A stretch of 64,000 nt of DNA from Novosphingobium ginsenosidimutans (GTDB lineage: Bacteria; Pseudomonadota; Alphaproteobacteria; Sphingomonadales; Sphingomonadaceae). Made by a program: the position numbers and the translations under genes. The stretch covers positions 434,001 to 498,000 of the forward strand of contig NZ_CP042345.1 of assembly GCF_007954425.1 (NCBI RefSeq), in the 5' to 3' direction. This document shows, piece after piece, positions 14,156 through 22,480 of the stretch (position 1 is the first letter of the stretch; every line of letters starts with the position of its first letter). The notes below the pieces were generated by a model. The model was not told where the DNA came from. It saw only the letters and a list, made by a program, of their open reading frames with translations, and ran no database searches.

Positions 14156-14267
14156 GGTAGTCTCCATTAGGTTTTCGCAGCCGATATAGGGCCGGTTGGG
14201 ACAAAGTCACGCATCAAGCCGAAGGCCGGGTTGCAAATGCCGGCAACGCGCCTAGACCGGCCCGGTC

Positions 14268-15701
14268 ATGACCGTGGACAAGCTCGACCCAGACCTGCTC
14301 GAAGGCGCCGCTGCCGCGGCCGAGCCGGCGCACGAAAGCGACAGCCTGGACGCCGAAAATACACTCAAGCCTGAATTCGTCCGCCGCGTCCGCGACGGGC
14401 TGGAAGCGGGCGAGAACGACGCGGTCTATGGCTTGGTCGAAGGGCTCCACCCGGCCGACATCGCCGACCTGTTCGAACTGCTCGATTCCGACGAACGCCC
14501 GGCGCTGGCCATTGCCATCAGCGACCTGATGGGCAGCGAGGTCTATGCCGAGCTGAACGACTATGTCCGCGAGGACATCGTCGAACAGCTTCCGGCCGAA
14601 ACCGTCGCGGATATTGCCGAACAGCTCGACACCGACGACGCCGTCGCCATGCTGGAAGACCTCGACGAGGAAGACCAGCAGGCTGTCCTCGCCGAAATGG
14701 AGCCCGAGGACCGCGCGGCGATCGAGACCGCGCTGTCCTATCCGGAAGAGTCCGCCGGCCGCCTGATGAGCCGCGATTTCGTCGCGGTGCCCGAACACAT
14801 GACCGTCGGTGACCTGATCGATTTCTTGCGCGACGGACGCGATCTGGCCAACGAGTTCTGGGAAGTGTTCATTGTCGACGCGCGGTTCCACCCGGTCGGT
14901 ACCTGCGCCTTGAGCTGGATCTTGCGCACTCCCCGGTCGATCGCGCTGACCGACGTGATGCAGCGCGACCAGACCCTGATCCCGGTGACCATGGATCAGG
15001 AAGAGGTGGCGCTGCGGTTCCAGAAATATGCCCTGATCTCGGCCGCCGTGGTCGATGCCGATGGCCGCCTCGTCGGCCAGATCACGGTCGATGACGTGGT
15101 CCACATCATCCAGGAAGAAGCCGGCGAAGACGTGCTGCTGCTGTCTGGCGCCGGCGAAGGCGATATCAACGAGCCGATCCGCGATTCCTATGTCGCGCGC
15201 GTCCGCTGGCTGATCGCCAACCTCGCGACCGCGCTGCTTGGCGCAACGATCATCAGCAGTTTCGGCGGGGCGATCGAAAAGCTGGTCGCACTCGCCGCAC
15301 TATCGCCGATGGTGGCCTCGATCGGTGGCAATGCCGGGACGCAAACGATGGCCGTCGCCGTCCGCGCGCTCGCAACCAATCAGCTGACCCGCACGAACAC
15401 CACCCGCATCCTGTTGCGCGAATTCCGCGTCGCCGTGCTCAACGGGGTGACTGTCGCCACGTTGATCGGCGTCGCGACCGCACTGGTCTTCTCGAACCCG
15501 CTGCTTGGTGTCGTGATCGGCACGGCCGTGGTGGTCAACATCATCACCGCGGGCCTCGCCGGGGTGGTCGTGCCGGTTACGCTCGACCGCCTGGGCCAGG
15601 ACCCGGCCGTGGCAAGCTCGGTCTTTGTCACCATGATCACCGATTCGATGGGCTTCTTCGCCTTCCTGGGATTGGCGGTGGCCTCAGGATTGGTGGGCTG
15701 A
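14268..15701 (+). CDS. mgtE: MgtE-type magnesium transporter
   Basis: A 477-residue channel with the full MgtE architecture: acidic N-terminal helical domain (about 25-150, ADIADLFELLDSDERPAL), tandem CBS domains (about 150-285) and five transmembrane helices in the C-terminal third. The pore-lining segment ASIGGNAGTQTMAVAVRAL is the MgtE signature. It moves Mg2+ (also Co2+) across the inner membrane, gated by cytoplasmic Mg2+ at the CBS and N domains. It is divergent from the cyclophilin B gene over 112 bp and followed at 3 bp by DUF1489. Confidence 0.96.
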   Translation: MTVDKLDPDLLEGAAAAAEPAHESDSLDAENTLKPEFVRRVRDGLEAGENDAVYGLVEGLHPADIADLFELLDSDERPALAIAISDLMGSEVYAELNDYVREDIVEQLPAETVADIAEQLDTDDAVAMLEDLDEEDQQAVLAEMEPEDRAAIETALSYPEESAGRLMSRDFVAVPEHMTVGDLIDFLRDGRDLANEFWEVFIVDARFHPVGTCALSWILRTPRSIALTDVMQRDQTLIPVTMDQEEVALRFQKYALISAAVVDADGRLVGQITVDDVVHIIQEEAGEDVLLLSGAGEGDINEPIRDSYVARVRWLIANLATALLGATIISSFGGAIEKLVALAALSPMVASIGGNAGTQTMAVAVRALATNQLTRTNTTRILLREFRVAVLNGVTVATLIGVATALVFSNPLLGVVIGTAVVVNIITAGLAGVVVPVTLDRLGQDPAVASSVFVTMITDSMGFFAFLGLAVASGLVG

Positions 15702-15704
15702 GCC

Positions 15705-16103
15705 ATGCCGCTTCACCTGACCAAAGTGGCCTACGGGGCGCAGTCGCTTGAGGAAATGCGCAGCTGGTTCGCAACCCGCGGCGCCGAGGCGCGGCTGACC
15801 ACGCGCTATCTGCCCAAGCGGCACGAGGAAATCGTGCCAGGCGGCTCGCTGTTCTGGATCTTCAAGCACCAGCTCGTCATGCGCAGCCCGATACTGCGGT
15901 TTGAAGAGGCCGAGGGCGGGCGGACCAACATCGTCATTGCCGCCAAGCTGATTGACGTGCTGCCGCGTCCCAAGCGCGCCCACCAGGGCTGGCGCTATCT
16001 TGAGGACGCCGATGCCCCGCGCGATCTTGGCAGCGATGAAGACAGCGGCGAGGTCCTGCCAGGCCACATCGCCGCCGATCTGGCCCGGCTGGGCCTCGTC
16101 TAG
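15705..16103 (+). CDS. DUF1489 family protein
   Basis: A 132-residue protein matching the DUF1489 family in length and in blocks such as LTKVAYGAQSLEEMRSW, RYLPKRHEEIVPGGSLFWI and HQGWRYLEDADAPRDL. Found almost only in alphaproteobacteria, with no known function. It is 3 bp behind mgtE, so co-transcription is likely. No signal peptide or membrane segment is visible. It converges on nrsF with a 3-bp gap. Confidence 0.9.
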   Translation: MPLHLTKVAYGAQSLEEMRSWFATRGAEARLTTRYLPKRHEEIVPGGSLFWIFKHQLVMRSPILRFEEAEGGRTNIVIAAKLIDVLPRPKRAHQGWRYLEDADAPRDLGSDEDSGEVLPGHIAADLARLGLV

Positions 16104-16106
16104 AGC

Positions 16107-16751
16107 CTACCAGCGCAGCAGCGGCGGCACGATCAGCCGGCCCAGCACGGCGGCGATCGCTACCGCCAGTCCGTGCCAGATGCCGATGTGGACCATGTCG
16201 GTATGCGGGCAATAGAGCGAGACCGCGAAGATACCTGCGCTGCCCGCACTCAATCCCGTCAGCAACCCGGCTTGGCCCAGCCGCACCGGCGCGCCGCGGC
16301 GCAGCCAGGCCGTCAGGATCGCGGCGGTAAACAGCCCGGCGAACAGGCCAAAGGTAATGCAATCGCGGCCATTGTCGCGCAGCGGCGATGCGTTGCCATG
16401 CAGCAGGCCGGTCACGATCAGGAACAGCGCCCCTAACGGCAGAACTGCGGCGGCAGCGAGGCTCCAGGCCCAGCCATCGCGCCTTGCGCCGACCGCAGGT
16501 CGGGCCGAATCGATCGCCGCCCAGGCCGAGGCCAGGGTCAGGACCAGGAATACGCCGGCCGAAACCACCCCGACCGGATCGGGGCGCGCGGCGAGGAGGT
16601 CAGAGCGGATCCCGAACAGGCCCAGCAGCAGCAGGACGCCTGCCGCCAGGCCGAGCAGGGCGCCGGCCATGCCACGCCAGCGGCGGAGCGGACGGACCGG
16701 GGCCAGGTCCTGCGCCAGCGCTTCGATCAGGGAATCAGTACTGCGTGTCAT
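16107..16751 (-). CDS. nrsF: NrsF-type membrane anti-sigma factor (DUF1109)
   Basis: A 214-residue protein with six predicted transmembrane helices after a short cytoplasmic N-terminus (MTRSTDSLIEALAQDLAPVR). It has exactly two cysteines, C131 (NGRDCITFG) and C181 (VSLYCPHTD), the pair I recall as conserved and needed for metal signalling in Caulobacter NrsF. It should hold SigF at the membrane and release it when copper, cadmium or chromate perturb those cysteines. The start at 16751, 11 bp after the sigma gene, is preferred over longer in-frame readings that run back into sigF. Last gene of the bufA1-doxX-sigF-nrsF operon. Confidence 0.92.
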   Translation of the reverse strand: MTRSTDSLIEALAQDLAPVRPLRRWRGMAGALLGLAAGVLLLLGLFGIRSDLLAARPDPVGVVSAGVFLVLTLASAWAAIDSARPAVGARRDGWAWSLAAAAVLPLGALFLIVTGLLHGNASPLRDNGRDCITFGLFAGLFTAAILTAWLRRGAPVRLGQAGLLTGLSAGSAGIFAVSLYCPHTDMVHIGIWHGLAVAIAAVLGRLIVPPLLRW

Positions 16752-16762
16752 GATGGTTCTTC

Positions 16763-17287
16763 TCAATTCTCGATCAGGGCAGCCAGCCGCTTGAGGCCGC
16801 GGTGAATGTTGACCTTGATCAGCGATTCGCTCTGCCCCGTGGCAGCGCTGGCCTCGCTGATCGAACGGCCTTCGATCTTGACCAGTTCGATCGCCCGGCA
16901 CTGCGCCGGGGGCAATTCCTCGAACAGCCGGTCAAGGCTGATCCGGGCAGTAATCGCCGGTTCGGCATCGACTGCGGGCAACTGCTCGTCGCTCAGTTCG
17001 TCCTCAGCGCGGCGGTAGGCCAGGCGAAGGTGGTCGACAAATTTGTAGCGGGCAATCGCCGCCAGCCAGGGCAGGAACGGACGTCCCGGATCGTAGCTGG
17101 CCAGCTTGCGGTGCAGGCTGAGCAGCGTTTCCTGGACAAGGTCATCCAATTCGCACGGGTTCACCCGCCGCCGCAAATAGCGCAGCAGCCAATCCCGCGC
17201 GGCCTGCAGCAGCGCGGCATAGGCCGTCCGGTCGCCGTGCTGGGCCAGCGCGGCGAGCCGGGCCAGGGTGGCTTCGTCGGCCGTCAA
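16763..17287 (-). CDS. sigF: ECF RNA polymerase sigma factor, SigF type
   Basis: A 174-residue ECF sigma. Region 2 is LDDLVQETLLSLHRKLASYD with FLPWLAAIARYKFVDHLR; region 4 is LPPAQCRAIELVKIEGRSIS then SESLIKVNIHRGLKRLA. These match the SigF group that pairs with DUF1109 anti-sigmas. It should recognise GTAACC-N16-CGAA, found in both directions 0.8 kb upstream. The TTG start overlaps the doxX stop (TTGA), an inefficient coupled start that would keep sigma levels low relative to the precursor. Autoregulation is expected because it lies in the operon that its own promoter drives. Confidence 0.94.
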   Translation of the reverse strand: MTADEATLARLAALAQHGDRTAYAALLQAARDWLLRYLRRRVNPCELDDLVQETLLSLHRKLASYDPGRPFLPWLAAIARYKFVDHLRLAYRRAEDELSDEQLPAVDAEPAITARISLDRLFEELPPAQCRAIELVKIEGRSISEASAATGQSESLIKVNIHRGLKRLAALIEN

Positions 17288-17748
17288 CAGCGTCCTCGCG
17301 CCAGCAGTGCATCAAGGCTGAGCCAGCCGCCGCCGCGCAGCACCAGCACCAGGGCGAGCGCGGCCCACAGTGAATGAACCGGCCACCAGGCCTCCGGATA
17401 GACGAAGAACTGGATCGTCAGCGTCATGCCCAGCAGGCCGAGCGCGGACAGCCGCGTGAATAGCCCGGCCACCAGCAAGGCGGGAAAGACATGCTCCGCC
17501 GCCGTGGCGGCCAGCGCCGCGAATTCGGGCGGCAGCGGGACGCCGGCATATTCGGTCCGGAACAGCTCATAGGTCGTCTCGGTCACCTGGAACCAGGTGC
17601 CCTCCTCTACCTTGGTCTGCCCGGAACGCCAAAAGATCCCGGCCAGCACGACCCGTACGAAGGCCAGCAGCACGCCATCGGGCACCTTGCCGGCCAGCGT
17701 CGCGGTCAGGCTGTCATAGCGCTGGATCAACCCGGACAGCAGTGTCAC
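17284..17748 (-). CDS. DoxX family membrane protein of the bufferin operon
   Basis: A 154-residue, four-helix DoxX-family protein ([20 protein letters not shown] near residue 32, [17 protein letters not shown], then two further helices). DoxX-family genes are regular companions of DUF2282/DUF692/DUF2063 clusters. The function is not established; a role in redox balance or membrane handling of the modified peptide is only inference. The GTG start overlaps the bufA1 stop (GTGA) and its own stop overlaps the sigF start, so translation is coupled through three genes. Confidence 0.9.
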
Positions 17749-18023
17749 GGACGCGGTTCCAGCGAACCGAAGCCCTTGGGGGTTTTCGTCTTGAGGCAGG
17801 TGCCCTTGGGAACCAGCTTCCAGGCATTGCCCTGGTAATCGCGGGTCGAGGTGCCGGCGCAGCTGGTGCCGGGGCCGGCGGCGCAGTCATTCTTGCCGGC
17901 CTTGGCTACGCCGTAGCACTTTTCGGTCGCCTTAGCGGGCTTGCTCTGCGCCTGCGCGGCGCTGGTGGCGGTGAGGACGGCGAGGGCAGCCAGGGCGGAA
18001 ATCGAGACGGTCGAGCGGTTCAT
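17745..18023 (-). CDS. bufA1: BufA1-family (DUF2282) bufferin precursor peptide
   Basis: A 92-residue secreted peptide. The N-terminal signal ends around TSAAQAQS (about residue 26). The mature part carries four cysteines, C36, C47, C55 and C76, in the DUF2282 arrangement [20 protein letters not shown] and KGTC. In bufferins, cysteines of this core are converted by a DUF692 oxygenase into thiooxazole-type heterocycles that bind copper. The ATG at 18023 has an AGGAG 8 bases upstream and gives a clean signal peptide; a longer in-frame reading adds a non-signal extension overlapping the promoter. First gene of the minus-strand operon, with a SigF-type promoter 54 bp upstream. Confidence 0.93.
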
Positions 18024-18076
18024 GGGGGCAACTCCTGTAATGCGGGGCAGCGCCGGTTGGCGTTGTCCTTCCCCCA

Positions 18077-18102
18077 TTCGGCAGCCCGCGCCGAGCGGTT
18101 AC
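18077..18102 (-). promoter_or_regulatory. SigF-type promoter for bufA1-doxX-sigF-nrsF
   Basis: On the minus strand, GTAACC (18097-18102) is followed by exactly 16 bases and CGAA (18077-18080). This is the -35/-10 pair I recall for Caulobacter SigF. The expected transcription start near 18070 leaves a leader of about 47 nt before bufA1. Confidence 0.87.
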
Positions 18103-18137
18103 AGCCAGCCCTAAAAAGAAAAATGCGCCGTCCGGCT

Positions 18138-18163
18138 GTAACCCGATCGGCAGCGGCGGCGAA
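18138..18163 (+). promoter_or_regulatory. SigF-type promoter for bufA2-bufB-bufC
   Basis: On the plus strand, GTAACC (18138-18143), 16 bases, then CGAA (18160-18163). Both promoters share the extended GGCTGTAACC, and the two -35 elements lie 35 bp apart, back to back around an A-rich stretch (18111-18123). Expected leader is about 40 nt before bufA2. Confidence 0.87.
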
Positions 18164-18209
18164 TGGCCAGATGCCGACCTGGCACGACCCTCAATTGGAG
18201 TTCCCCGAC

Positions 18210-18494
18210 ATGCACACTGCCAAGACCGCTTCGGCGCTTGCTTCGCTCGCCGCCGCTTTCGTCCTCGCCGCCGCTGCCAACGCTGCCCCCGCCCCGGCCG
18301 GCAGCTCGGGCAAGGCGCTCGCCGATGCTGACACCGTCCACTGCTACGGCGTCAACACCTGCAAGGGCACGGCTGACTGCAAGACCACCGAACACGAATG
18401 CAAGGGCATGAACGGCTGTAAGGGCCACGGCTTCAAGGCCATGAAGGCCGGCGAATGCCTGAAGCGCGGCGGCACGATCGGCGATCTGGGCTGA
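18210..18494 (+). CDS. bufA2: BufA2-family bufferin precursor peptide
   Basis: A 94-residue secreted peptide. The signal runs [17 protein letters not shown] and onward to about ANA-AP near residue 26. The mature region has six cysteines, C45, C51, C57, C64, C70 and C83, in a near-regular pattern: [38 protein letters not shown]. This Cys-Lys-Gly repeat is the BufA2 signature and differs from the four-Cys DUF2282 type across the promoter. The ATG at 18210 has GGAG 9 bases upstream. Likely post-translationally modified by BufB/BufC and exported as a copper-binding metallophore. Being under 100 residues, it is easily missed or wrongly extended leftwards through the promoter. Confidence 0.92.
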
Positions 18495-18504
18495 TCCCTC
18501 CCCC

Positions 18505-18544
18505 GGGCCCGGCCGCTGCCCTCACCCCCCTCCCGGCCGGGCCC
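18505..18544 (+). other. strong stem-loop between bufA2 and bufB
   Basis: A perfect 11-bp inverted repeat, GGGCCCGGCCG (18505-18515) and CGGCCGGGCCC (18534-18544), has an 18-nt loop and starts 10 bp after the bufA2 stop. No T-run follows, so it is better read as an mRNA-stabilising or partly attenuating hairpin than as a full terminator. Confidence 0.8.
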
Positions 18545-18575
18545 ACCCCTTTCCTCGCGCAATGGTTCAACAGCG

Positions 18576-19409
18576 ATGACCGGCACCATCCCGCCCTTCT
18601 CCGGCTTTGGCCTGGGTCTGCGCAAGGAACACCACGAAGCGTTCCTGACCGCGCCGCAGCCGGTCGACTTCGTCGAGGTCATTTCCGAGAATTTCATGGC
18701 CTGTGGCGGCCGCCCGCTGGCCACGCTGGAAGCCGTGCGCGAACGCTATCCGGTGATCCTGCACGGCGTTTCGATGTCGCTCGGCGCGGACCAGGAGCCG
18801 GACCGCGCCTATCTGGCCGAGCTCAAGACGCTGGCCCGGCGGATCGACCCGCTGTGGGTCTCCGACCATCTCTGCTGGACCGGGTTTGGCGGCCACAATT
18901 CGCACGATCTGCTGCCGGTCCCCTATACCGCAGAAGCGCTGGCGCGCTGCATCCGCAACCTGACCATCGCGCAGGACGCGCTGGAGCGGCCGCTGCTGAT
19001 CGAGAACCCGTCAAGCTATGTGCGCTTCCCGGACAGCACTCTTACCGAATGGCAGTTTTTGGCCGAACTGAGCGCTTCAACCGGCTGCTACCTGCTGCTC
19101 GACGTGAACAACGTCTTCGTTTCCAGCGTCAACCACGGCTTCGATCCGCTCGAATTCCTGAGCGGGATCCCGACAGGCCGCGTCCGCCAGATCCACCTCG
19201 CCGGGCATAGCCAAGGTCCAGAGGGCATGCTGATCGACACCCACGATGCGCCCGTGCCTGACCCGGTCTGGCAGCTCTATGCCTCTGCGGTTGACCACCT
19301 TGGTCCGGTTGCGACCATGATCGAACGCGATGACCAGGTTCCGCCACTGGCGGACCTGTTGGCCGAGCTCGCCCAGGCGCGCTGTCTGGCGGAGCGCGTG
19401 CCGGCATGA
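18576..19409 (+). CDS. bufB: DUF692 multinuclear iron oxygenase (BufB) for bufferin maturation
   Basis: A 277-residue TIM-barrel protein of the MNIO (DUF692, MbnB-like) family. Candidate iron ligands lie at the expected strand ends: E38 (ISEN), H63 (ILHGVSMS), D97-H98 (SDHLCW), E143 (LIENPSS), D176 and N178-N179 (LLDVNNV), H187, H207 (IHLAGH), D221-H223 (DTHD) and E250 (MIERDD). MNIOs use two or three irons and O2 to convert peptide cysteines into heterocycles. The following DUF2063 gene overlaps by 4 bp, as in other MNIO-partner pairs. The Shine-Dalgarno is weak, so BufB should be made in smaller amounts than BufA2. Confidence 0.95.
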   Translation: MTGTIPPFSGFGLGLRKEHHEAFLTAPQPVDFVEVISENFMACGGRPLATLEAVRERYPVILHGVSMSLGADQEPDRAYLAELKTLARRIDPLWVSDHLCWTGFGGHNSHDLLPVPYTAEALARCIRNLTIAQDALERPLLIENPSSYVRFPDSTLTEWQFLAELSASTGCYLLLDVNNVFVSSVNHGFDPLEFLSGIPTGRVRQIHLAGHSQGPEGMLIDTHDAPVPDPVWQLYASAVDHLGPVATMIERDDQVPPLADLLAELAQARCLAERVPA

Positions 19410-20140
19410 CCCTGGCAGTCCTGCAACGCGCCTTCCTGGCCGAGATTGCTGCCGATGACGCGCTGCCGCCCTCGTCCGCTGGCATGGCGATCTACCGCAA
19501 CGCCTATCGCGGCCGGTTGAGCGATGCGCTGGCATCGGGCTTCGAGCGGACCAAACGCTGGGTCGGCGAGGAGGCCTTTGAACAGGCCGCCGCCCATTAC
19601 ATCCTGACCAATCCGCCGCATCGCTGGACGCTCGATCTGTTTGGGGAAGCTTTTCCGGATCTGCTCGGAACCCTGTTTGCCGAAGATCCCGAAGTGGCAG
19701 AGCTGGCCTGGCTCGAATGGCAGCTGCAACAGGCGTTTGCCGCCCGCAATGCGCCAGTCCTGACTGCTGCGGACTTGGCCGAGGCCAGCTTGTCCGAAGA
19801 CGATTGGGCGCGGCTGCGCTTCATCCCGGCGCCGGGCTTTGCGGCGCGCCAGGTGAACTTCGATGTGGTGACCTTGTGGCCGCTGCTGCGAGACGAGGCG
19901 GCGGCGAGCGCCCCGGCAAGGCTGCCGGAATCAGGCTGGCTGATCGTCTGGCGCCAGGACCTGTCGCCGCACTACCGGCTGCTTGACCCGGCTGAAGGTA
20001 CCGCGCTCGTAGCTCTGGCGGGCGGGGAGAGCTTTGGCGAAGTGGCTGCGCGCGTTGGTGCGGACGGCCTTCCGCAATTCGGAGCGTGGTTTGCCAGCTG
20101 GCTGGCCGAGGGCCTATTTTCCGCCCTGGAGCTTACCTAA
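19406..20140 (+). CDS. bufC: DUF2063 partner protein (BufC) of the bufferin oxygenase
   Basis: A 244-residue protein. The N-terminal DUF2063 domain reads LQRAFLAEIAADDAL, MAIYRNAYRGRLSDALASGF and HYILTNPPHRWTLDLFG; a second all-beta/alpha half follows. Family members (MbnC, BufC, HvfC) bind the precursor and present it to the DUF692 enzyme. The ATG overlaps the bufB stop (ATGA), consistent with an equimolar complex. The 3' end converges on an SDR gene with a 4-bp overlap. Confidence 0.93.
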   Translation: MTLAVLQRAFLAEIAADDALPPSSAGMAIYRNAYRGRLSDALASGFERTKRWVGEEAFEQAAAHYILTNPPHRWTLDLFGEAFPDLLGTLFAEDPEVAELAWLEWQLQQAFAARNAPVLTAADLAEASLSEDDWARLRFIPAPGFAARQVNFDVVTLWPLLRDEAAASAPARLPESGWLIVWRQDLSPHYRLLDPAEGTALVALAGGESFGEVAARVGADGLPQFGAWFASWLAEGLFSALELT

Positions 20141-20907
20141 CCGCCGCGCAGGCGGGCGATATAGGCGCGCACGTCGTGCTCCTCATCGCCGTCATAGCGC
20201 GGGGCATAACGGGCAAAGGCCGCTTCCAGCGCAGCGGTCCGCTCGGTCATCGGCACCACGTTGTAGGCGTGGCTGACCACGAACCGCTCGCGTGCGGCCA
20301 GCTGCGGCAGGATGATCTCGGCATAGCGCTCGGCCGGCATGGCCTGATCGCGCCCGCCCTCGCTGGTCAGGCCGGAAAGGACCCAGCCGGGGATGATCGT
20401 GCCGGCATGAACATGCTCGGGCAGGTCCTCGCGCAGGCTTTCGGTCAGGCCCAGCACCGCGTGCTTTGAGGCGATGTAGGCGGCTGAACGCGGGACCGCG
20501 CAGAACAGCGCGTTTTCGGAAGCCACGTTGTAGATCGCCGAGGGGTGGTCCTGCGCCGCCATGCGCGGGGCAAAGGCCGCGCAGCCGTGCCAGACGCCCC
20601 AGAAATTGACCTCGAACACGCGGCGGGCGGCGGCAATGTCGGCCTTCCACAAGCGCCCACCGCCGCCGGAAATCCCGGCGTTGTTGACCAGCAGGTCAAC
20701 CCGCCCAAAGCGCTGCCAGGCCAGCTCAGCCAAAGCTTCGACCTCTTCCAGGTTCGCTACGTCGCAGGCAACGATTCCGTCCGCCGCTTCACGATCGGCC
20801 AGCAGGACCTGCGCGCCTGCCGCTTCGAGCGCCTTGCCAAGGGCCCCGCCGATCCCCCCGGCCCCGCCGGTGATCACCGCGACCTGGCCAGAATAGTCGG
20901 GCATCAT
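20137..20907 (-). CDS. SDR family NAD(P)-dependent oxidoreductase
   Basis: A 256-residue classical SDR: cofactor loop TGGAGGIGGALG, NNAGISGG, catalytic Ser in YNVASENAL and the Y-x3-K motif AAYIASKHAVLGL. An Asp-rich second strand (LLADREAAD) favours NAD(H). The substrate is unknown. It overlaps the upstream FrnE-type gene by 4 bp, so the two are co-translated, at the end of a minus-strand run mutY-hydrolase-nudC-dsbA-SDR. Confidence 0.93.
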   Translation of the reverse strand: MMPDYSGQVAVITGGAGGIGGALGKALEAAGAQVLLADREAADGIVACDVANLEEVEALAELAWQRFGRVDLLVNNAGISGGGGRLWKADIAAARRVFEVNFWGVWHGCAAFAPRMAAQDHPSAIYNVASENALFCAVPRSAAYIASKHAVLGLTESLREDLPEHVHAGTIIPGWVLSGLTSEGGRDQAMPAERYAEIILPQLAARERFVVSHAYNVVPMTERTAALEAAFARYAPRYDGDEEHDVRAYIARLRGG

Positions 20908-21605
20908 CCTGCCCGCGCCGCCAGCTCAGCCTCGCGCGTGACCACGCGGCGCAGGGCATTGGCATAGGTCTCGGGCTCCTGCGCGCCGGGGATCAGGAAC
21001 TTGCCGTTGATCAGCATCGCCGGCACGCCGCTGACGTTCATATCATAGGCCATGCGCTGTTCTTCCTGCGCCTGCTGGGCCAGCACCGTGTTGTCGAGCG
21101 CGGCCGCAGCGGCGTCTCGATCAATCCCGACAGCTTCCGCCACATCTAGCAGCACGGCAGGGTCAGAGACATTGCGGCGCTGCTGGAAGTGCGCATCGAA
21201 CAGCGCCAGTTTCAGCTCGGTCTGCTTTTCCGGCCCGTGCTGCGCCAGCGTCCACAGCAGCAGCTGGTGCGCGCGCAGCGTGTTCCACAGCCGCGCCTGC
21301 GGTGCCTCACCCTCACCCGTATAGTCGAACGAATAGCCGGCCCGGGCGCCGATCTCCTTCATCTGTCCGCGCGCTGCGGCCATCTGGTCGGGCGTGCGGC
21401 CATATTTGCGGGCAAGGTGCGCCTGCTGTTCCTCGCCCTCTGGCGGCATATCGGGATTGAGCTGGAAGGCATGCCAGCGGACCTGGGCCTCAACCTCGCC
21501 CTCCAGCGCTGCCAGGCCCTTCTTGAGCTGTGAATAGCCGATGATGCACCATGGGCACATCACATCAGACCAGATGTCGATCGTGACTTTAGCGGGCTGG
21601 GTCAT
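20904..21605 (-). CDS. FrnE-like DsbA family oxidoreductase
   Basis: A 233-residue cytoplasmic thioredoxin-fold protein with an inserted helical domain and active site MCPWCIIG near the N-terminus, the hallmark of the FrnE/DsbA_FrnE family (disulfide isomerase or 2-hydroxychromene carboxylate isomerase-like). No signal peptide is present. The ATG at 21605 overlaps the nudC stop (ATGA), which favours it over the GTG 12 bases upstream. It may act in thiol redox control or oxidative-stress defence, inferred from the family. Confidence 0.92.
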   Translation of the reverse strand: MTQPAKVTIDIWSDVMCPWCIIGYSQLKKGLAALEGEVEAQVRWHAFQLNPDMPPEGEEQQAHLARKYGRTPDQMAAARGQMKEIGARAGYSFDYTGEGEAPQARLWNTLRAHQLLLWTLAQHGPEKQTELKLALFDAHFQQRRNVSDPAVLLDVAEAVGIDRDAAAAALDNTVLAQQAQEEQRMAYDMNVSGVPAMLINGKFLIPGAQEPETYANALRRVVTREAELAARAG

Positions 21606-22480
21606 TTGTCGAGCCACCAGACTAGCAGGTTGTGGGCAATGGCGAAGGGCCGCGGGAAGATCAGCGTGTCGGTACCATCAGGACCGGCGGCACGCGCGGC
21701 TTCCAGTTCCTCGCGGGTGAACCAGCGCGCTTCTTCAAGCTCGGTGAAGTCAACTGCCAGCTCCGGATCATCGGTGAAGGCGTGGCACCCGATCATCAGC
21801 TGCGAGGGGAACGGCCACGGCTGGCTGGCGACATAAGACACGTCGCGCACCCGCACGCCGGCTTCTTCGAAGCTTTCACGCGCCACGGCTTCCTCGATCG
21901 TTTCGCCGGGTTCGACAAAGCCCGCCAGCGCCGAATAGATCCGCGCCGGAAAGCGCGGCTGGCGGCCCATCAGCAGGTGGCCCTTGTGTTCGATCAGCAT
22001 GATCGTGACCGGATCGGTGCGAGGGAAGTGCTGGGCCTTGCAGCTGTCGCAGTTGCGCTGCCAGCCACCCTTGCTGACCTGGGTCGCGCCGCCGCACCGT
22101 GCGCAGAAGCGGTGCCGGGCGTGCCAATCGACCAGGCTGCGCGCGCCGCCATAAAGCGCCAGTTCGCCCGGATCGAGCGCCGACATGGCGGCCCAGATCG
22201 AAGGGTTGGCATAGGCTGGCCCGGTCGCGCCTTCATCGGGCACGGCGGCGAAGCAGGCCTTGCCATCCATCAGCCCCAGGAACACCAGTTCCGCGTCCGG
22301 ATCGGCATCCGCCAACGTGCCCCATTCCAGCGCGCCCTCATCGGTATAGACCGGCGCCAGGCCATCCAGCTTAAGCAGCCGCGCGCGCCAGTTCGTCAGG
22401 GCCGCCAGCTCTTCGGGATTGGCGCGGATGTGGTCGGCCCGGTCGATCGGTGAACCGGCAAAGGCGATCGGCGCCTTCAT
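21602..22480 (-). CDS. nudC: NAD(+) diphosphatase NudC
   Basis: A 292-residue Nudix hydrolase. The zinc ribbon is CARCGG with NCDSC, the Nudix box GFVEPGETIEEAVARESFEE continues into AGV, and the NudC-specific SQPWPFPSQLM follows. NudC cleaves NADH/NAD+ and removes the NAD cap from RNA 5' ends. It overlaps both neighbours by 4 bp. Confidence 0.96.
   Translation of the reverse strand: MKAPIAFAGSPIDRADHIRANPEELAALTNWRARLLKLDGLAPVYTDEGALEWGTLADADPDAELVFLGLMDGKACFAAVPDEGATGPAYANPSIWAAMSALDPGELALYGGARSLVDWHARHRFCARCGGATQVSKGGWQRNCDSCKAQHFPRTDPVTIMLIEHKGHLLMGRQPRFPARIYSALAGFVEPGETIEEAVARESFEEAGVRVRDVSYVASQPWPFPSQLMIGCHAFTDDPELAVDFTELEEARWFTREELEAARAAGPDGTDTLIFPRPFAIAHNLLVWWLDK

Follow-up and report, generated by a model that had tools for sequence, protein, structure and literature searches.

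Two bufferin precursors and a single Buf2-type maturase in a SigF/NrsF-associated locus of Novosphingobium ginsenosidimutans

Gene content of the locus

A 64,000-nucleotide stretch of the Novosphingobium ginsenosidimutans genome (RefSeq assembly GCF_007954425.1, contig NZ_CP042345.1; positions 434,001 to 498,000 of the forward strand), referred to here as the window, was examined for genes directing the production of bufferins, which are copper-binding ribosomally synthesised and post-translationally modified peptides (RiPPs). An earlier note on this DNA had described positions 16107–20140 as a complete bufferin locus with its own sigma/anti-sigma switch. The profile matches identify the region as a genuine bufferin locus, but one unlike the textbook example, as it carries precursors of two families, BufA1 and BufA2, and only one maturase. 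The features, in window coordinates, are as follows.

16107..16751, minus strand: NrsF-family anti-sigma factor (214 amino acids (aa); PF06532, 4.4e-40; Cys131 and Cys181)
16763..17287, minus strand: SigF-like extracytoplasmic function (ECF) sigma factor (PF04542 and PF08281; TTG start as listed; sigma-70 regions 2 and 4)
17284..17748, minus strand: DoxX-family membrane protein (PF07681, 1.3e-16; start overlaps the bufA1 stop)
17745..18023, minus strand: BufA1, Buf1/DUF2282 precursor (92 aa; PF10048, 1.8e-25; four Cys in the mature part)
18210..18494, plus strand: BufA2, Buf2 precursor (94 aa; NF050166, 102.2 bits, cut-off 60; six Cys)
18576..19409, plus strand: BufB, multinuclear iron oxygenase (MNIO) maturase, Buf2-type (PF05114, 3.1e-107; NF050167, 365.1 bits, cut-off 310)
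19406..20140, plus strand: BufC, DUF2063 protein (PF09836, 1.8e-20; predicted fold like the MNIO partner NGO1945, PME-type 1)
18077..18102, minus strand: putative sigma-F type promoter GTAACC-N16-CGAA for bufA1-doxX-sigF-nrsF (exact match to the published consensus)
18138..18163, plus strand: putative sigma-F type promoter GTAACC-N16-CGAA for bufA2-bufB-bufC (exact match)
18505..18544, plus strand: predicted intercistronic stem-loop between bufA2 and bufB (11 bp G+C-rich stem, C-rich loop)
16104..20156, no strand: presence/absence unit, approximate extent (flanking genes joined directly in one genome of the same genus)

All seven open reading frames (ORFs) of the earlier description are present, and profile matches confirmed the assignments of the DUF2282 precursor, the MNIO, the DUF2063 protein, DoxX, the ECF sigma factor and the NrsF-type anti-sigma factor. 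BufA2, for which Pfam gave nothing to E 0.001, passed the NF050166 model. The genes form two operons, bufA1-doxX-sigF-nrsF on the minus strand, in which genes overlap or nearly touch, and bufA2-bufB-bufC on the plus strand. Inspected by eye, both precursors begin with a signal-like segment, ending in AQA in BufA1 and ANA in BufA2, and four of the six Cys of BufA2 are followed by Lys.

Several proteins fell below the cut-offs of more specific models. NrsF scored 50.6 bits against the NCBIfam equivalog NF042994 (cut-off 300) and is thus an NrsF-family protein by its Pfam match, outside the equivalog. DoxX scored 40.5 bits against the HvfX model NF050144 (cut-off 80) and BufC 20.4 bits against the HvfC model NF050145 (cut-off 142). 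A sequence search of the PDB with BufC gave no match up to E = 1, and its predicted structure (244 aa; mean predicted local distance difference test score, pLDDT, 93.0) had as best PDB matches NGO1945 (3DEE; 1.7e-5) and the TglHI structure 8hi7 (8.0e-5); a RiPP recognition element with leader peptide (5v1v) was matched only at E 1.3.

A single Buf2-type maturase beside two precursor families

In the N. ginsenosidimutans genome (3.12 Mb, one contig), PF05114 and DUF2282 were each matched once, in both cases at this locus, and a single BufA2 was above the curated cut-off. No Buf1-type MNIO lies beside BufA1, and the sole MNIO found in the genome is of the Buf2 type. An MNIO gene adjoining a Buf1 precursor gene is described as usual, not defining, and unlinked precursors have been reported (PMC12452194). 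As only a Buf2-type pair is present, BufA1 either relies on this pair or stays unmodified. The description of the locus as complete therefore holds for all seven genes but not for the maturases, as there is no Buf1-type MNIO/partner pair for BufA1. That one maturase stands beside two precursor families, and that it is of the Buf2 type, goes beyond the earlier note, whose interpretation as a whole is partly supported.

BufB is assigned to the Buf2 type by its position in a phylogenetic tree and by a published selectivity residue. The tree included 84 MNIO sequences, the one in the window and 83 from 80 fetched loci of the same taxonomic family. These were drawn from 118 match rows, of which 34 lower-scoring ones (classic, distant or fragmentary) were left out, including those of apparent further two-precursor loci in genomes G210 and G018, where the MNIO match is in two pieces. 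All 52 MNIOs encoded downstream of a bufA2 gene were in one 57-row clade (99/83). Another 24 MNIOs were on one side of a 100/99 branch, 23 with a co-directed BufA1 just upstream and one with no precursor found. The BufB of the window belongs to the Buf2 clade, and its terminal branch measures 0.76 (median 0.21). In the alignment of the 84 sequences, 32 residues were invariant among the rows with a residue at that position (at least 80 of 84), including H63, H98, D111, E143, D176, H207, D221, H223, E250 and D252, and many of these conserved residues are common to 3bww.

MNIOs acting on Cys-Lys (BufA2) precursors carry Asp just after the position of the FonB catalytic base, Asp249, and this residue has been modelled as touching the substrate Lys (PMC13097082). 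Mapped onto BufB, Asp252 would occupy the catalytic-base position and Asp253 the BufA2-Lys contact position. Asp was found at the contact position in 49 of the 52 BufA2-linked MNIOs (39/41 and 10/11).

A bufA2-bufB pair with a divergent bufA1 was present in 41 of the 84 MNIO loci. The window layout was seen in 24 of these, 13 have sigF-nrsF in front of bufA2, and four are partial or have two MNIOs. The 41 loci come from 40 genomes, and no second MNIO was found in 31 of the 40 (one of them 77% and one 86% complete). Layout and promoter counts by class, here and below, cover the 80 loci and the window.

Retention of BufA1 and the enzyme that may mature it

Judged by sequence, BufA1 looks to be under constraint and alive without an enzyme of its own. 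Exactly four Cys were found in all 78 complete copies, which come from the three layouts with a Buf2-type enzyme (two contig-edge copies were set aside and some genomes were counted twice). Cysteine counts, and the overall promoter motif count given below, draw on both the 80 fetched loci and a second, overlapping set of 59 loci of named records, and so include repeats. Over these overlapping sets, BufA2 had six Cys in 101 of the 105 copies counted and seven in four. The pooled ratio of non-synonymous to synonymous differences (pN/pS), calculated from pairs picked by hand, was 0.16 for the mature domain of BufA1 (15 pairs) and 0.13 for BufA2 (16 pairs), compared with 0.20 for BufB, 0.17 for SigF, 0.27 for DoxX and 0.38 for NrsF (18 pairs each).

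A reading of BufA1 as a decaying remnant, stranded when its own Buf1-type MNIO and partner were lost, is already disfavoured and hardly credible, given the low pN/pS of its mature domain, the four Cys in every complete copy and its own sigma-F site. Loss of a Buf1-type pair would itself be plausible, because loci with both MNIO pairs exist (L101, L145, L157 and L158 in Marinobacter, and L148 in Azoarcus).

In three genomes of one genus (L088, L095 and L103), a Buf2-type BufB-BufC is retained facing BufA1, and no BufA2 match to E 0.001 was found in the whole genome and none in the locus. The enzymes of these loci formed a 100/99 clade nested among those of two-precursor loci, and forcing them together with the classic Buf1 enzymes was rejected by the approximately unbiased test (p-AU 0.019; groups named after the tree had been seen). 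In a fourth locus (L098), which has two co-directed BufA1 and in which no BufA2 was found, the enzyme grouped with that of a two-precursor locus (99/96). The contact residue in these four loci is Glu, Glu, Asp and Asn. It is thus changed in three of the four BufA1-only Buf2-type loci, as against Asp in 49 of the 52 with BufA2 (Fisher p 0.0028, kinship uncorrected).

It is unlikely, although deserving of serious consideration, that BufB-BufC modifies BufA2 only and that BufA1 is exported unmodified, as a four-Cys thiol peptide serving as a redox or metal sensor or as a DoxX partner. The bufA1 gene is in one operon with doxX, sigF and nrsF, away from the enzyme gene, and the residues around the BufA1 Cys (mostly NDCAA and TSCAG) are unlike the Cys-Lys contexts of BufA2. 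Whether one MNIO pair serves several precursors or some precursors stay unmodified is left open in PMC12452194, where the latter is raised as a possibility. However, the Buf2-type enzyme has been kept beside BufA1 in the three genomes without detectable BufA2, and loci with bufA1 immediately in front of an MNIO gene show for the most part the same BufA1 contexts (NDCAA in 23 of 32 and TSCAG in 20 of 32).

Maturation of BufA1 by the Buf2-type pair is the reading preferred here, and a number of points weigh against it. L088, L095 and L103 each have a second, stand-alone BufA1 elsewhere, and BufB may have another, unrecognised substrate in the genomes lacking BufA2. Forcing L098 with the classic Buf1 enzymes was not rejected (p-AU 0.072), and its placement is not firm. 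Two of the three contact-residue changes are the conservative replacement of Asp by Glu within one clade, and the third is that of L098. FonBC is selective for the residues around Cys (PMC13097082), and the residue after Cys is Ala in BufA1 but in most cases Lys in BufA2. The FonB-F250D variant still yielded product (PMC13097082), and the contact site alone therefore does not decide the substrate. As this variant retained activity, Glu is a conservative change and kinship was uncorrected, the shift of the contact residue in loci lacking BufA2 is suggestive only.

The SigF-NrsF switch and its putative promoters

The intergenic region between the two precursor gene starts (18024–18209; 186 bases) contains two divergent copies of GTAACC-N16-CGAA, one exact site on each strand, in keeping with the earlier view that the parts are grouped around one promoter region. 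This is the sigma-F binding sequence of Caulobacter crescentus, where the promoters of target operons were mapped by 5' rapid amplification of cDNA ends (PMC3511200). Exact matches to GTAACC-N15-18-CGAA numbered two in the 64 kb window, both intergenic, with 0.16 expected, and one of 100 shuffles reached two. In 1.31 Mb of loci (repeats included), 169 motifs were found before locus genes and 14 elsewhere, compared with five for a reversed control pattern.

Among the 24 loci with the window layout, searched with spacers of 16 or 17 bases, an exact site was present before bufA2 in 20 and before bufA1 in 13, and the spacer was 16 bases in 36 of 38 sites. The exact pair occurs in just 11 of the 24, and neither site of any kind was found in two, which counts against the reading of the locus preferred here.

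The SigF-like gene is in the same operon as the nrsF gene, behind a sigma-F site. Cys131 and Cys181 of NrsF have numbers identical to those of the C. crescentus pair, replacement of which raises the expression of sigma-F-dependent genes (PMC3511200). The family matches and the divergent sigma-F sites support the earlier proposal of a bufferin locus with its own SigF/NrsF switch. An NrsF gene was within 3.6 kb in 41 of the 52 bufA2-bufB loci. A second sigma-F site was observed within the operon, before doxX, in all ten classic Buf1 loci (L107, L110–L112, L114–L117, L119 and L125), and doxX-sigF-nrsF may therefore be driven separately there.

Copper induces the SigF regulon of C. crescentus in all conditions tested in PMC8224329, this regulon forms most of the shared copper response, and a sigF::Tn5 mutant is copper-sensitive. 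That the inducer or ligand is instead another metal or an oxidant (gold, silver, chromate or cadmium), with copper secondary and with or without sharing of the maturase, is improbable on this evidence. It would fit with the response of C. crescentus sigma-F to dichromate and cadmium (PMC3511200) and with that of the Cupriavidus metallidurans gig cluster to gold and silver, and also copper (PMC8224329), but mutation of sigF left C. crescentus no more vulnerable to dichromate or to cadmium (PMC3511200).

A stem-loop between bufA2 and bufB

The bufA2-bufB junction (18490–18580) had a minimum free energy of -31.5 kcal/mol (z -2.14), a value reached by 3 of 200 shuffles, and a slightly different stretch over the same stem-loop gave z -1.9. 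Among 51 family loci, z was under -2 at this junction in 36, and a stem of at least 10 pairs was present in 49, with differing stem sequences. The mean stem length was 12.8, compared with 8.7 in simple shuffles, and 29 of the 51 beat all 20 shuffles. There was little stem excess at the bufA1-bufB junction (8.1 against 7.7; 18 cases) or the bufA1-doxX junction (8.3 against 7.5; 39 cases). An Rfam search of 15500–21000 gave nothing up to E = 1. A CCUCC loop motif was rejected as a shared feature, being present in just 12 of the 51 loci.

Distribution and layouts among relatives

In 249 genomes of the family, drawn from a larger group, an MNIO was found in 95, DUF2282 in 87 and a BufA2 above cut-off in 53; NrsF was matched in 121, in 120 of them above cut-off. 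Named records with the window layout belong to Novosphingobium, Croceicoccus, Qipengyuania, Altererythrobacter, Erythrobacter, Pontixanthobacter, Sphingomonas and other genera. The two Marinobacter records have a full Buf2 and a full Buf1 cassette in tandem, and in the Azoarcus record both precursors and two MNIO pairs are interleaved. Two or three MNIOs, with BufA1 and BufA2 in differing pairings, were seen in L054 (19 kb), L101 and L145, which are possibly intermediates between the two-cassette and shared-maturase layouts. Four Sphingopyxis loci (L161, L163, L173 and L176) have two tandem BufA2-like precursors before one MNIO, and no BufA1 was found within the stretch examined.

The same locus is in the same place in Novosphingobium sp. 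UBA6722, with 94% identity across 10.3 kb, and none of three other genomes of the genus had an MNIO match. One of these (L185) matches window positions 14227–16123 and 20147–21619 gaplessly, with an overlap of about 10 bases, and is a clean empty site in which the flanking DUF1489 and short-chain dehydrogenase genes are joined directly; the other two lack a clean join. Either gain or loss of the locus could account for this difference within the genus. A mobile origin was considered and rejected, as the three matching plasmid records each covered no more than 6% of the query.

Other candidate sigma-F sites in the genome

The N. ginsenosidimutans genome contains 13 exact sites with spacers of 15 to 18 bases, six of them with N16, including the two at the locus. 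As the reversed control pattern gave 40, the motif alone is no evidence genome-wide. One N16 site (L015) is antisense inside a thiolase-like ORF. The site preceding the methionine sulfoxide reductase gene msrA (L007) is antisense inside the neighbouring ORF. When the best msrA copy was searched in 20 layout-bearing genomes, one of which matches 9 of the 10 positions, and in 10 genomes without MNIO and NrsF matches, none had an exact site, and msrA was rejected as a SigF target.

Two further N16 sites were noted. One (L010; C1:1386301-1386326) is 38 bases past an ORF end, and a small ORF has its first ATG about 150 bases beyond the site. The other (L008; C1:863025-863050) is 10 bases before a cytochrome b561 gene, which is followed by a molybdopterin oxidoreductase gene. 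MsrPQ of C. crescentus is SigF-controlled and copper-induced (PMC8224329), and L008 is possibly a parallel to it, to be taken as a lead only. Its catalytic protein scored 82.6 bits against the MsrP model, under the cut-off of 207, and, of the 18 relatives that have both the layout and a cytochrome match, three have an exact site, about 310–340 bases upstream, with a spacer resembling coding sequence.

Comparison with known systems

The gene types, the promoter consensus and NrsF Cys131/Cys181 are those of the C. crescentus sigma-F regulon (CC3254-3257, which is Buf1 with DoxX, and CC2907-2905), in which both DUF692-DUF2063 operons are under SigF (PMC3511200). As described there, C. crescentus has a separate MNIO and DUF2063 gene for each precursor, at different places, whereas here one pair lies with both precursors at one place. 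CC2907 is called a DUF2282 protein in PMC3511200, C. vibrioides is said to have Buf2 in PMC12452194, and CC2907 is presumably that Buf2; NF050166 gave no match in the C. vibrioides control genome.

The classic Buf1 operon bufA1-bufB-bufC-doxX-sigF-nrsF, found at 10 loci of relatives, has the same DoxX-SigF-NrsF module and promoter, but its MNIO is of the Buf1 type and directly follows bufA1, which is not the case here. The Buf2 operon bufA2-bufB-bufC corresponds to the right half of the locus, and BufB is of that type. Buf2 clusters are reported in PMC12452194 as being without sigma/anti-sigma genes and Buf1 clusters as having them, whereas NrsF is near most bufA2-bufB loci in this family.

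Captophorins, the peptides of MNIO-PME1 systems (oxazolin, fontiphorin and gonophorin), among which bufferins are counted, also have an MNIO and a DUF2063-type partner and contain 5-thiooxazole copper ligands (PMC13097082). However, the precursors of oxazolin, fontiphorin and gonophorin are of the EGKCG type, and the position taken by Asp in the BufA2-type enzymes is Phe in their MNIOs (PMC13097082).

Proposed mechanism and implications

Bufferin precursors are Sec-exported, and BufB-BufC make Cys-derived thiooxazoles that sequester periplasmic copper; Buf1 itself carries such copper-chelating thiooxazoles (PMC12452194). The Caulobacter work to which the earlier note refers, that such peptides have modified cysteines and buffer periplasmic copper, is published and says what the note states (PMC12452194 and PMC8224329). 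Sequence shows which genes are present, where the two promoter sites lie, that the one MNIO found is of the Buf2 type, and that BufA1 has been retained under constraint. From the gene parts and the established work on bufferins and SigF, we infer that the locus makes two peptides that buffer copper, that copper triggers it and that it amplifies its own expression. It is likewise by inference that BufB modifies BufA1, that the products are thiooxazoles, that copper is inducer and ligand alike, and that the stem-loop has a role.

At rest, the membrane protein NrsF would hold SigF. A thiol-reactive metal, most likely excess copper, would reach the two conserved NrsF cysteines and cause the release of SigF, which would then fire both divergent promoters. 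The minus-strand promoter would give BufA1, DoxX and more SigF and NrsF, and the plus-strand promoter BufA2 and the maturases. BufC would bind the precursor and BufB would turn core cysteines into thiooxazoles, after which the peptides, exported by Sec, would chelate periplasmic copper. Through the stem-loop after bufA2, precursor mRNA would probably be kept more abundant than enzyme mRNA. It is probable, with about two chances in three in our estimation, that the locus is compact, regulates itself and yields two bufferins, BufA1 and BufA2, each matured by the one BufB-BufC pair under SigF/NrsF, copper being the likely signal.

A history in which a Buf2-type BufB-BufC took over Buf1 maturation is held with less assurance, and is slightly favoured over its negation. 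The Buf1-type pair would have been dropped, the two peptides would have come to be controlled by a single sigma-F switch, and BufA2 would then have been lost in at least one lineage, with the contact residue relaxing.

Bufferins, their SigF-NrsF control and the idea of one MNIO pair serving several precursors are already in print (PMC12452194), and no description of a shared-maturase Buf1/Buf2 locus was found in the literature searched, which was mostly open-access. Two precursor families with a single enzyme make the open question of substrate sharing by MNIOs directly testable, and the relatives lacking BufA2 isolate BufA1 as the cross-family substrate. The layouts also correct the picture of sigma-F switches as confined to Buf1, at least in this bacterial family. 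If the proposed history is true, a maturase has changed client families, and its original substrate, BufA2, has been lost in at least one lineage.

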